DNA from: Salinarchaeum sp. IM2453
Lineage (GTDB): Archaea; Halobacteriota; Halobacteria; Halobacteriales; Salinarchaeaceae
Assembly (NCBI RefSeq): GCF_019693215.1
Contig: NZ_CP081183.1
Coordinates: 1,801,226-1,865,225, forward strand
Direction: 5' to 3'
Length of the DNA: 64,000 bases
The translations under genes were made by a program, and so were the position numbers. Position 1 is the first letter of the stretch; each line of letters opens with the position of its first letter. The notes below the pieces were generated by a model that made no database searches, had not been told where the DNA came from, and saw only the letters and a list, made by a program, of their open reading frames with translations. Positions 15,999-53,220 of this stretch are shown in pieces.

Positions 15999-16436
15999 GT
16001 CAACTGCCATGGGGTCAATCCCCGAGAATTCCCCGTCTTGTGCCCGCACCTGTAGGTAAATTCAATTTCATTTGGCCTTCTCAGGTTGGGGTCAACTGGA
16101 GCTCACACCTGAGACACAAAAAGGGGGTCCGTGAGGCTCGGTGGATCCACCCTCGCCCGAAAATATCCATTACACGCCCAATGGACGGTGCTGAGAGGAG
16201 TTACCTTCACAAACCGCCACACGACCAGCGAGGGAATTGAGGACTTCAAGTCTATACCGTGAATACTTCGTTTCTGGTGATTATCTGTTTGTTGTCGATT
16301 AGGCTGTATAACTTCCATCATATTTGTTATGATACTCTTCCTCGCTGTCGAGTCGTTCGAGAATCTCCAATTCTCGTGATCACGAAAAACGAAGGTCTTC
16401 AAACGACCCCCGAAGAACTCTCTTTCTCTCTGCAAA
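15999..16436 (+). mobile_element. Degraded PATE-like non-autonomous element (copy 2)
   Basis: This 850-bp gene-free region contains a diverged copy of the element at 32933-33367. The two share the left hairpin (GGGGTCAATCCCCGAG here), the block CGCCCAATGGACGGTG, the block GAGGAGT, the CCAGCGA block, and the right part CAAACGACCCC followed by a pyrimidine-rich end. It has no open frame of its own. Inside is a hairpin GAGAAT-CTCCA-ATTCTC at 16359-16375. It is read as an old palindrome-associated (PATE) or IS200/IS605-derived element. Confidence 0.55.
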
Positions 16437-16595
16437 CAGACTGTTTCCAATCTATAAGTATCGTCGATAATCAGGTATATGTCATCCATAATATCTCTGG
16501 TAGGTTAAGTGGAAGTAGAGAGCATAGCAGGATAACCTGTTCATGAATAATCTGTGTCTCAACCATTGATAGGGTTTGGCGTACTTTCCTGTTAT

Positions 16596-32932: not shown

Positions 32933-33367
32933 GTGAAGTACCTCGGTGTCAAGCCCCGAGGCTTCGCCGTCTTGGGACCGCACCGCACCCGCAGGCAAAT
33001 GTAATTCCTCCCGACCTTCTCCGTGAGGAGTCGGCTGGAAGTCACACCCGAACACTCGTTGTGTCCGTGGGAGTCGGCGGCTCCACTACCGCCCGACAAC
33101 TCCCGTCTCACGCCCAATGGACGGTGTTGAGAGGAGTCGCAGTTCCAGTCCAACGGCCAGCGAAGGAAATGAGGTCTTCATTTCCATACTTTGAGCAGTT
33201 TGTTTCTGGCCGTTGTCAGTGTATTATAGCTCGAAAATCTTAAATTTATATAATATTTCGACGGCATTCACCCTCGGGTCAAGTGGTTCGAGACGCAAAG
33301 CGTCTCGTCATCATGGAAATCTCCGATTTCCAAACGACCCCGAGGCACTCTGCCTGCTATTTCTGTA
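32933..33367 (+). mobile_element. PATE-like non-autonomous element (copy 1)
   Basis: A 435-bp element with no frame of its own. It starts with GTGAAGTACC and the hairpin TCGGTGTCAAGCCCCGAG. It ends with CGACCCCGAGGCACTCTGCC and TTTCTGTA, the same ends seen in the short copies. An internal module has two tandem perfect hairpins, GAGACG-CAAAG-CGTCTC (33290-33306) and GGAAATC-TCC-GATTTCC (33315-33331). It fits the palindrome-associated elements of Haloquadratum, which are thought to be mobilised by IS200/IS605 transposases. Confidence 0.6.
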
Positions 33368-33377
33368 GAACTCTTGG

Positions 33378-33616: not shown

Positions 33617-34492
33617 CTATTTTTCACCGGTCTCAATCGGAGCCCCCACTAAATTACCCCATTCTGTCCACGAACCATCGTAATTTCGCACATCATCGTA
33701 ACCTAACAATTCATGGAGGGCAAACCACTCAATCGAGGATCGCTCACCAACCCGGCAGTAGGCGATGGTCGACTCTTCTCCACTCACACCTGCTTTTGCA
33801 AAGAGGTCTTTTAATTCATCCTTTGATTTGAACGTACCATCGTCGTTTAGCACGGTTCCAACAGGAACATTGCTTGCCCCAGGGATTCGTCCGCCTCGCT
33901 GAGCGGTCTCATTGAGTCCTTCCGGTGCGATAATCTCACCGCGGAACTCTTCTGGCGAACGGACGTCGACGAGTGGAAGTCCCTCCTCAACTGCGTGTTC
34001 CACATCATCTTTGTATGCACGAATCTTCTCGAACGGCCCACGAGGATTGTACTCTTGTTCAGAGAAGTTACTGACATCGGTTGTTGTTGGGTAGTCGTTA
34101 TTGATCCAGTATGGTTTTCCTCCATCAAGCACGCGCACGTCATCGTGGCCGTAGTATTTGTAAATCCAATATGCGAACACAGCAAACCAATTTGGAATCC
34201 GTCCGCCACCGTATAGCACAACTGTTGAATCTTCCGTGATTCCTGCGTTACCGTTCAACGCTGCAAATCCATCTTTGGAAACAATGTCGCGCTGTGTTTG
34301 ATCAGACAGGTCGTCTTCCCAGTCAAAAAAGATCGCTCCAGGGATGTGTCCTTCTTCATATGACGTATACTCTGACTCATCAGTTACTGTTGGGTTGTTA
34401 ACCTCCAGAAGCCGGTACTCAGGGTCGTCACTTTGAAACTGTTCAAGATGGGATTCAACCCAATCGGCTGTTACAAGAATGTCATCTGACAT
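33617..34492 (-). CDS. Thiosulfate sulfurtransferase (two rhodanese domains)
   Basis: A 291-residue tandem rhodanese that moves sulfane sulfur to an acceptor. The second domain has the catalytic Cys in AYCRVGERSS (the CRxGxR active loop). The first domain has the inactive-type loop (VVLYGGGR). The TssA-like arrangement is standard for archaea. The start at 34492 (MSDDILVTADWV) is used because the 16 residues before it are rich in Tyr/Lys and foreign to the family. In sulfur-rich haloarchaeal metabolism it may serve thiosulfate or cyanide detoxification. Confidence 0.88.
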   Translation of the reverse strand: MSDDILVTADWVESHLEQFQSDDPEYRLLEVNNPTVTDESEYTSYEEGHIPGAIFFDWEDDLSDQTQRDIVSKDGFAALNGNAGITEDSTVVLYGGGRIPNWFAVFAYWIYKYYGHDDVRVLDGGKPYWINNDYPTTTDVSNFSEQEYNPRGPFEKIRAYKDDVEHAVEEGLPLVDVRSPEEFRGEIIAPEGLNETAQRGGRIPGASNVPVGTVLNDDGTFKSKDELKDLFAKAGVSGEESTIAYCRVGERSSIEWFALHELLGYDDVRNYDGSWTEWGNLVGAPIETGEK

Positions 34493-34687
34493 TAGATAAT
34501 AATACTTTCCGGACTTGTATATCAGATGTGCAAAATACAAACTTTGCTTTTTTCTATGACAACCACATTTCCAAACCAGAAATAGACCTTTGCTATATAA
34601 AAATCCCTGTGGTCACAGTAATGGATACAAGAAAGTATACCCGGTAAACTGCTCCTCAGCAGTTCAGAAAACTACAATGGTCGTGCG

Positions 34688-35117
34688 TTTGACCTCCTCC
34701 CACCCGTGAACGGGGTGGGATTCCCACGGCACCGCACCGCTTGGTTGGGAGTTTCAGGTTCGCAGTCTGGTCGGCATGACCAGACCGCTGGCGGGGTCGA
34801 TCGAAAATCAAAGATTTTCGTGATGACGAGACTCTTCGATTCTCGAACCACCAAGCCGCCGTCTCTGATCCCGGCATGGGATTCAGAGTTACCGTGCTGA
34901 TTGGAATCCACAACCAGCGGCCCGGAGGGGAATCCTTCAGACGTGGCGTGGCTCGAATCCCGATATTATCCGTTTAGCAGGGCGGCGAAAACCGCCTCGG
35001 TGTAGTCATACCTATTTTCCGATTGAATAGAAAACTCCGGGATGTCTCAACCCCGTAGAGAGATTCCCAGTTGTCGGCTTCATCCACACCCGTAAACGGG
35101 TGGGCTTTCGCCTCGAA
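34688..35117 (-). mobile_element. Internally deleted derivative of a tnpB-type element
   Basis: About 430 bp on the minus strand with both ends of the element that carries tnpB at 51902. The left end shares the run GCCCACCCGTTTACGGGTGT and the GATGAAGCCGACAACTGGGA block with 51781-51819. The right end is GGGAATCCCAC, a hairpin, then GGAGGTCAAAC, like 53181-53220. No tnpB remains. Inside are two hairpins at 34828-34844 and 34803-34819 that match the twin-hairpin module of the 32933 element. Confidence 0.6.
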
Positions 35118-51695: not shown

Positions 51696-51745
51696 GTGAA
51701 GTACCTCGGGGTCAAGCCCAGGGGCACTCTGTCTTTATGTCCGTA
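51696..51745 (+). repeat. IS-end hairpin, GTGAAGTACC type, next to tnpB
   Basis: Starts GTGAAGTACCTCGGGG, followed by TCAAGCCCAGGGGCACTCTG. It lies immediately left of the tnpB element and right of a degenerate reverse-oriented GTGAACTACC-type copy (about 51640-51690). Confidence 0.45.
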
Positions 51746-51755
51746 GATGGGGATA

Positions 51756-53220
51756 GCTTACGGCGTTAGCAAGGCGAACGCCCACCCGTTTACGGGTGTG
51801 GATGAAGCCGACAACTGGGAATCGTTCCACGCTCGTAGCCATGGCTGGATATTCCACGCCGAGAACCAACAGTTATCTAAGAAAAAATACTATGCTTACA
51901 TATGTCGAATCAGGTCGTCACGCGGACACTCAAAGCGAGTATCCGTAACCACTCGCAAGTCTGTGACGACCTTGATTCGCACGGCTTTGCCGCGTCAAAA
52001 TTGTGGAACGTCGGGCGATGGACGATTTCGCGTGTCTGGGACGCCATCGGCCACATTCTAGACGCCGACGAACTCTGTTCGCACCTCAAATCACACGACC
52101 GCTATGCAGACCTACACAGCCAATCTAGTCAGCGAGTTCTTCAGGAACTCGGTGAGGCGTTCGTCTCGTGGTACGAACAGGACGACCCAGACGCCAATCC
52201 ACCCGGCTACCGCAAACACGGCGATGACCACCCCCGCTCAACCGTGACGTGGAAAAATCAAGGCTTCAAACTCGATACCCAGTACAACCGCGTCCGTCTC
52301 TCGAAAGGCACGAACATGAAAGAGTCGCGCTATGCCGCCGACTACATCCTCTGTGAATACACGCTCCAGACAGCCGAGCAGACACTCGACGCTGTTGAGA
52401 ACGTCCAGACGGTGCGTGCTGTCTGGACCGGCGAGCAGTGGGAGTTGCATTTTGTCTGCAAGCTGCGGGTTGAGACGCCTGAGACACCCGGTGAGAAGAC
52501 CGCAGGTGTTGACCTTGGGATCTGTAACACAGCGGCAATCTCTGTCGGTGACGAGACACTACTGTATCCCGGCAACGCTCTGAAAGAAGACGCCCATTAC
52601 TTCCGACAGCAAGAATACGAGACGGAGGGGAAAAATGACCCCAGCGACCACGCAGAGTGGGCCAGACAGAAGAAATCCCGGCGGCAAGACCACTTTCTGC
52701 ATGCCCTCTCGAAAGACATTGTTGAGCAGTGTGCTGACCGAGGTGTTGGGACAATTGCCGTCGGCCATCCGAAGAACATCTGTGAGGATGAAGACTGGGG
52801 GCGACACGGCAACAAACGCCTGCACGACTGGGCGTTTGAAACACTACTCAGCCACATCGAGTACAAAGCCCAAGAACGCGGGATCGACGTAGAGCGTGTA
52901 GACGAAGCAGGGTCGAAAACGTCGAAAACCTGTTGTGAGTATGGAACGGAAGCTGAGTCGAATCGAGTCGAACGTGGGCTGTACGTGTGTGCAAACTGCG
53001 GGTTGGTCGCCAATAGCGACCTGAACGCGGCAGAGAATATGCGAGCGACGGTAACTCCGAATCCGACACAGGATAGGAGTAACGGCTGTTTGGCTCAGCC
53101 TTCGGTACGCCTGTTCGATAAACAAACGGGGCGAGTAGCCCCACAAGAACAGGTTGTATCGTGAACCCTAATATCCCAACGTGGGAATCCCACGGCTTCA
53201 GCCGTGTGGAAGAAGTCAAA
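51756..53220 (+). mobile_element. IS1341-type (IS200/IS605 family) element with tnpB only
   Basis: About 1.46 kb bordered by a left end hairpin (about 51765-51810, GGCGAACGCCCACCCG…CGGGTGTGG) and a right end (53181-53220, GTGGGAATCCCAC, hairpin, GAAGTCAAA). It carries no tnpA, so it must be moved in trans. It is visibly more GC-rich than its neighbours, consistent with recent arrival. A deletion derivative with the same ends lies at 34688-35117. Confidence 0.75.
51902..53164 (+). CDS. tnpB: TnpB-family RNA-guided nuclease, possibly defective
   Basis: A 420-residue TnpB of the haloarchaeal OrfB clade. RuvC-I Asp is in AGVDLGICNTA (D204) and RuvC-III Asp in NSDLNAAENM (D373). The usual RuvC-II Glu position reads AVGHP (G288), with acidic residues only a few positions later (CEDEDW); this clade may use those. 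The Zn-ribbon should be CxxC…CxxC, but the first pair reads C344-C-E-Y347, so one Cys is Tyr while C363 and C366 remain. The enzyme cuts DNA guided by RNA from its right end; this copy may be inactive or altered. Codon use is GC-rich compared with the flanks. Confidence 0.88.
   Translation: MSNQVVTRTLKASIRNHSQVCDDLDSHGFAASKLWNVGRWTISRVWDAIGHILDADELCSHLKSHDRYADLHSQSSQRVLQELGEAFVSWYEQDDPDANPPGYRKHGDDHPRSTVTWKNQGFKLDTQYNRVRLSKGTNMKESRYAADYILCEYTLQTAEQTLDAVENVQTVRAVWTGEQWELHFVCKLRVETPETPGEKTAGVDLGICNTAAISVGDETLLYPGNALKEDAHYFRQQEYETEGKNDPSDHAEWARQKKSRRQDHFLHALSKDIVEQCADRGVGTIAVGHPKNICEDEDWGRHGNKRLHDWAFETLLSHIEYKAQERGIDVERVDEAGSKTSKTCCEYGTEAESNRVERGLYVCANCGLVANSDLNAAENMRATVTPNPTQDRSNGCLAQPSVRLFDKQTGRVAPQEQVVS

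Follow-up and report, generated by a model that had tools for sequence, protein, structure and literature searches.

The window, a 64,000-nucleotide stretch of the Salinarchaeum sp. IM2453 genome, carries two PATE copies, a remnant of a tnpB 3' end, a terminal-only PATE and an intact tnpB with its omegaRNA (Table 1). PATE copy 1 is separated from the tnpB remnant by an intact sulfurtransferase-like gene, by eye of the rhodanese type (33617-34540, minus strand). The original prediction had described twin hairpins with compensatory changes in three of these elements, and all the quoted hairpins were found: GAGACG (33290-33295) pairs with CGTCTC (33301-33306) and GGAAATC (33315-33321) with GATTTCC (33325-33331) in copy 1, GAGAAT pairs with ATTCTC within 16359-16375 in copy 2, and on the minus strand of the tnpB derivative GAGAAT/AGTCTC, with one mismatch (34844-34828), is followed by GAAAATC/GATTTTC (34819-34803). 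The CGACCCC(C) block claimed to follow the hairpins is present in all three copies, and each copy constitutes one module of exactly 54 nt. A motif comprising the first hairpin and the linker matched exactly twice in the window, in copy 1 and the tnpB derivative, and not once in 100 shuffles. Two further features had escaped the original prediction, namely that copies 1 and 2 also differ by another compensatory change, in which position 2 varies with position 26 (TGG...GTCATCA versus TCG...GTGATCA), and that the window holds an empty copy of the PATE right-end site at 51696-51730. In single-stranded DNA folding, copy 1 formed its two hairpins enclosed by an outer stem (z -6.8); one long hairpin was preferred by the tnpB copy (z -3.3), and copy 2 was degenerate (z -1.6; 17 of 200 shuffles were equally good). 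The core of the PATE is conserved between the diverged copies 1 and 2 (33090-33145 and 16150-16205) as CACGCCCAATGGACGGTG.TGAGAGGAGT, with one base different, and may have a function or fold of its own.

Table 1. Features of the window that host, flank or lack the double-hairpin module.
Feature	Position	Strand	Remarks
Double-hairpin module copy 1	33284..33337	+	HP1 33284-33310, HP2 33311-33337; covariance-model match of 77.1 bits in own genome
Double-hairpin module copy 2	16353..16406	+	Opposite pair 2-26
Double-hairpin module in tnpB 3' remnant	34797..34850	-	Site empty in L004, L061, L023
Host right-end palindrome, 5' arm CCTCGGG and loop TCAAG	33272..33283	+	Directly 5' of copy 1 insert
Host right-end palindrome, 3' arm CCCCGAGG	33338..33345	+	Directly 3' of copy 1 insert
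PATE copy 1, host of module copy 1	32933..33369	+	Left end GTGAAGTACCTCGG, right end ...CTGTAGA
PATE copy 2 (carries module copy 2)	16005..16440	+	Diverged, limits approximate
OmegaRNA-like (sot0042-like) tnpB 3' remnant	34698..34894	-	Module in second hairpin; 28 bits, E 9e-5, below gathering score
Terminal-only PATE without module	51696..51745	+	Empty site, CCTCGGGGTCAAG joined to CCCAGGGG
Intact sot0042 omegaRNA of neighbouring tnpB (51902-53164)	53049..53209	+	No module; control

The claim that the pairing is under selection was borne out once a larger set of copies had been assembled and a covariance model built, since the covariation was overwhelming. The twin hairpin is a real, discrete folded DNA insert. 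Its consensus is a non-coding, quasi-palindromic unit of 54-62 nt with the layout TSGTT-hairpin-TSATCA-hairpin-NACGA, and the structure ((...((((((((...)))))))).))((.((((((((...))))))))...)) was scored on 59 aligned gap-free modules of 54 nt. Across these modules 95.8% of cells were paired versus 84.0% after shuffling, and 148 versus 48 were changed on both sides; because most of the 59 were retrieved by a pattern fixing TTCGAGA and TCTCGTSATCAYGRAA, the constant parts of the stems are biased in these figures and the varying pairs are unbiased. Pair 2-26, which lies outside the quoted hairpins, is GC in 38 modules, CG in 20 and AU in one, and is broken in none of the 59. A further 38 copies, found by the model outside the training set, gave 94.1% paired cells versus 78.5% shuffled. 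Module length was 54, 56, 58, 60 or 62 nt in 131 of 139 copies and odd in the other 8, indicating that the stems lengthen by whole base pairs. Each hairpin has an asymmetric internal loop of 3 nt against 1 nt, GTT/T in one and its mirror image A/NAC in the other; since hairpins and loops mirror each other, the same fold arises on either DNA strand, and owing to the quasi-palindromic sequence nearly every copy is matched by the covariance model on both of its strands. Other origins and folds were considered. A single long hairpin was rejected as the selected fold because it leaves only 72.2% of cells paired and shows little covariation, and a protein-coding origin was rejected because the contexts are mostly non-coding and a stop stands in frame within tnpA. 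With internal loops of 3 and 1 nt and feet of 2 bp, in place of two 3-nt bulges round 4 bp, the module also appears incompatible with an archaeal bulge-helix-bulge intron.

The flanks of the module were joined and searched among the collected loci. Exact empty sites, free of target duplication, were recovered for at least three contexts. The tnpB/omegaRNA site, GGCGGCTTGG joined to CCCCGCC, was empty in L004, L061 and L023. In the PATE/IS200 right end, CCTCGGGGTCAAG was joined to CCCCGAGG in at least nine loci and at the window site 51696-51730, and an internal tnpA site, CTGTCG joined to CTCCAC, was empty in L146, L116, L224 and the tnpA of the Salinarchaeum genome itself. Insertion is deduced here rather than witnessed, because filled and empty sites were compared across different elements or species and not within isogenic strains. 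The loop of the PATE/IS200 right end was the commonest context (69 of 141 copies), and the module was also found in tnpA and tnpB. Among the independent other contexts, the insert sat at a G-to-C junction, with G before it and C after it, in 31 of 36, compared with a background of 8.6%. A perfect surrounding stem of at least 9 bp was present in 39% of the independent other contexts versus 2.9% of GC-matched controls (p = 1e-5) when 60-nt flanks were used; a first test with short offsets had been negative, so the nesting claim depends on the wider definition. The association with IS200/IS605/PATE elements and the nesting in larger palindromes are strong. The original prediction had treated the module as a part of PATEs, which did not hold: it is a separable insert found outside PATEs too, with its own terminal inverted repeats (TCGTTCGA/TCGAACGA in the symmetric, TCG form) and without PATE ends, and the PATEs are its hosts. 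In some contexts, such as terminal-only PATEs and the repeat that we call family B, the module may have been inherited with its host and not newly inserted. Family B is a larger extragenic repeat consisting of GTGGGACTGAAAGGGGC, a variable outer stem, the module and GGGGCTTTC; the outer stem of 10-14 bp is hypervariable yet complementary and encloses modules of 56-62 nt. It was observed in many genera, Haloarcula, Halorubrum and Halosimplex among them (L070, L090, L107, L139, L144, L153, L168 and other loci), often in inverted pairs, and seems to be a structured repeat family in its own right.

The Salinarchaeum genome has one Y1 transposase gene, an intact IS200-type tnpA whose right end carries the module 48 bp past the domain match, and the same spacing was found in genomes G274 and G080. 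Elsewhere in this tnpA family (L106, L149, L073) the right end is empty and the module lies inside the gene. The right end of PATE copy 1 matches the module-free IS200 right end of L106 and L149 at 93% over 45 nt, suggesting that the PATE very probably descends from the IS200-type element whose right end it shares. A BLAST search of the Salinarchaeum genome, a single contig of 2.66 Mb, with the PATE as query returned 13 full or nearly full copies including copy 1, as well as many short matches consisting of the module alone or of right ends. Most of the 13 copies were shown to bear the module, which indicates that it does not stop the spread of the PATE. Module-rich genomes with 10-28 matches and no Y1 match were also present (G009, G011, G015, G026, G136 and G262), and across genomes the presence of any Y1 tnpA was only weakly associated, by eye, with that of the module. 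The G-to-C junction is not a tetra- or pentanucleotide target of the IS200 type, and a non-exhaustive search among the collected loci revealed no autonomous element with half-modules at its ends. In genome G000, tnpB without tnpA is in strong excess, with 34 TnpB (OrfB_IS605) domain matches, each within an open frame some 290-590 aa long, and a single Y1 tnpA.

The 21 module-filled tnpA loci that were read belong to several families (including L244-L262, L073, L106, L149 and L163). They share one layout, 52 codons followed by the 54-nt module in frame and then 80 codons, with the insert at a single site just before the HUH motif. The palindromic centre of the module reads TGA in 16 of the 21 copies and GGA in 5, in which the frame is open through the insert; these five represent three to four lineages, with three to four changes on the tree. 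In the model alignments the corresponding base, A30, is changed to C in 7 of 19 tnpA copies and in 1 of 60 copies from other contexts (p = 1e-4 by Fisher's test, a value that overstates independence because the copies are related). The simplest reading is that the insert often truncates TnpA and that stop loss has repaired the gene in some lineages. Filled and empty tnpA genes are interspersed on the tree, and a single-clade topology was rejected (p-AU 5e-95). Despite this interspersion, independent insertions at the one site were rejected, since the tnpA modules have one common set of stems and divergence is minimal at the junction; for the same reasons, it is more likely that one old insertion was passed on by transfer and gene conversion, or was lost several times.

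Covariance model R1, built from the 59 modules, detected about 50 module loci in the small Salinarchaeum genome and at least one match in 259 of 294 Halobacteria genomes (88%), representing 72 of 78 genera. Elsewhere in the phylum, weak matches were found in four MAGs only. Three MAGs from one non-Halobacteria genus of the same phylum (G318, G327 and G334) gave 10-19 weak matches each with E about 1e-6, which are possibly a related double-hairpin repeat outside the haloarchaea. When 84,980 species genomes were scanned with a DNA pattern, for which we estimated a chance expectation below about one match, at least 120 stretches matched, those listed being all from Halobacteria. The viral contigs searched contained no match, and a literature text search for sequence strings of the module retrieved nothing relevant. 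In the plasmid records checked, the module is mostly unannotated.

Several other explanations of the module were weighed. A TnpB guide-RNA scaffold (ωRNA-like), one of the two roles offered by the original prediction, could draw on the location of the third window copy within a sot0042-like tnpB remnant, to which the remnants at L051, L052, L056 and L062 are similar, and on the recurrence of tnpB 3' ends as hosts (L094, L097, L183, L169). However, the remnant gives a weak full-length alignment to the haloarchaeal omegaRNA/sotRNA (Rfam RF02656, sot0042; PMC12558985) in which the module region is an extra insertion in the second hairpin, the Rfam model having no module, and the same omegaRNA hairpin exists without the module in L004, L061, L023 and the intact tnpB of the window. 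In Halobacterium salinarum the loop of the second omegaRNA hairpin forms a pseudoknot with a transposon-encoded motif (PMC12558985), so an insert there would be expected to damage the scaffold, not to serve it. Since the related hairpin does without the module and most copies sit in tnpB-free contexts, the scaffold reading is unsupported and, already contradicted, extremely improbable; the module has been added to the omegaRNA and is no part of it. An RNA element that serves processing, stability or regulation and is transcribed with transposons and with certain host regions would agree with the covarying hairpins and with sites at tnpB 3' ends and in tnpA, where transcription is expected. We consider it unlikely, because a mirror-symmetric fold matched by the model on both strands is needless for RNA, the module in tnpA is reversed relative to the gene, no Rfam family matches the module, and the loops at the tnpA site vary and flip to their reverse complements (GGA/TCC, GAA/TTC) as the tips of DNA hairpins do.

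The module might instead be the normal right-end hairpin part of one IS200/PATE subfamily that TnpA recognises, the other copies being scattered remnants of right ends. The prominence of right ends among the contexts, the position of the module in the Salinarchaeum tnpA element and in G274 and G080, and the fact that the amplified PATEs are the module-bearing ones all speak for this, but right ends of the same family are otherwise unchanged without the module (L106, L149, L146, L224 and the window site at 51696), and the bare module occurs without right-end flanks in the tnpA, tnpB and family B contexts, which leaves this explanation quite unlikely. It is also conceivable that host genes tolerate a clade-wide, structure-conserved insert, with bypass, read-through or removal from the RNA dealing with the in-frame insert and its TGA in tnpA, and the filled genes functional under purifying selection. 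The dN/dS ratio is low in both classes of tnpA (0.15-0.17 in filled and 0.15 in empty genes), although purifying selection on the filled genes cannot be taken as proof that they work, and we give this possibility very little weight.

The other role offered by the original prediction, a single-stranded DNA structure for transposition, fits the mirror-symmetric fold on both strands, the IS200/IS605/PATE hosts and the lack of target duplication. The best reading is that IS200/PATE elements carry the module as a REPIN-like or SMR-like single-stranded DNA passenger, which the Y1 TnpA probably processes. The module would be non-autonomous, taking up its fold once its strand is single, on the lagging strand or in the single-stranded circle made by TnpA, and it would travel mostly with IS200-type elements or PATEs, in their right ends, as the Y1 (HUH) TnpA mobilises them. 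Occasionally it would land alone at a G-to-C step near the apex of another hairpin through HUH cleavage and rejoining, and its fold may be kept by selection because only folded copies would be processed. Taken as a whole, this account, from the carriage by IS200-type elements and PATEs to the occasional solo landing, is one that we lean towards with restrained confidence.

Short mobile twin hairpins without genes are also known from mitochondrial genomes, as double-hairpin elements and related hairpin repeats. The module works alike, but those elements are organellar and unrelated in sequence, and no membership is claimed. Among haloarchaeal elements, a close parallel is provided by the small mobile repeats of Haloquadratum walsbyi known as SMR-A (HqIRS42, HqIRS43 and HqIRS55). 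These sit in palindromes near the ends of PATEs and IS605 elements, make no target duplication and have an enigmatic mobiliser (PMC3119063, the paper that named PATEs). The module shares with them its shortness, inverted-repeat ends, absence of target duplication and preference for near-terminal palindromes of PATEs and IS605-type elements. In contrast to SMR-A, described as about 110 bp long from two strains of one species (PMC3119063), the module is 54-62 nt long, half that length, and occurs in 72 of 78 haloarchaeal genera. The PATEs and IS200-type elements of haloarchaea (PMC3119063) host copies 1 and 2, in which the module is an insert missing from otherwise equal ends, and the tnpB remnant of the window resembles the PATE HqIRS71 as described, with its C-terminal tnpB segment (PMC3119063). 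In architecture the module is closest to REPINs, in which two inverted REPs form a hairpin linked to a RAYT/TnpA-REP (PMC3116915). Both are non-autonomous, symmetric pairs of inverted small hairpins with covarying stems, linked to Y1 transposases of the IS200 superfamily. REPINs differ in being bacterial, extragenic, tagged with GTAG/CGTC and served by a dedicated RAYT, whereas the hosts of the module are transposon ends, tnpA and tnpB genes and palindromes, and its foot is TSGTT/NACGA, CGTC occurring inside TGG-type copies and not as an end tag. In Archaea, IS200-type Y1 proteins alone have been found, RAYT partners being absent (PMC6006769); the Salinarchaeum genome has a single IS200-type tnpA with the module in its right end. 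Membership in SMR-A or in REPINs is not claimed.

Few small structured DNA elements of haloarchaea appear to be as widespread as the module. In the papers retrieved, REPIN-like elements tied to IS200-type transposases are described from bacteria only, with dedicated RAYTs, and the module offers a test of whether small hairpins can be dispersed by an ordinary IS200 TnpA. The question raised by the work on Haloquadratum, of what moves SMR elements into the palindromes of PATE/IS605 transposons, is touched as well. The tnpA copies form a natural series, from empty genes through genes filled with a stop codon to filled genes with the stop repaired, for the coexistence of a transposon with an insert.
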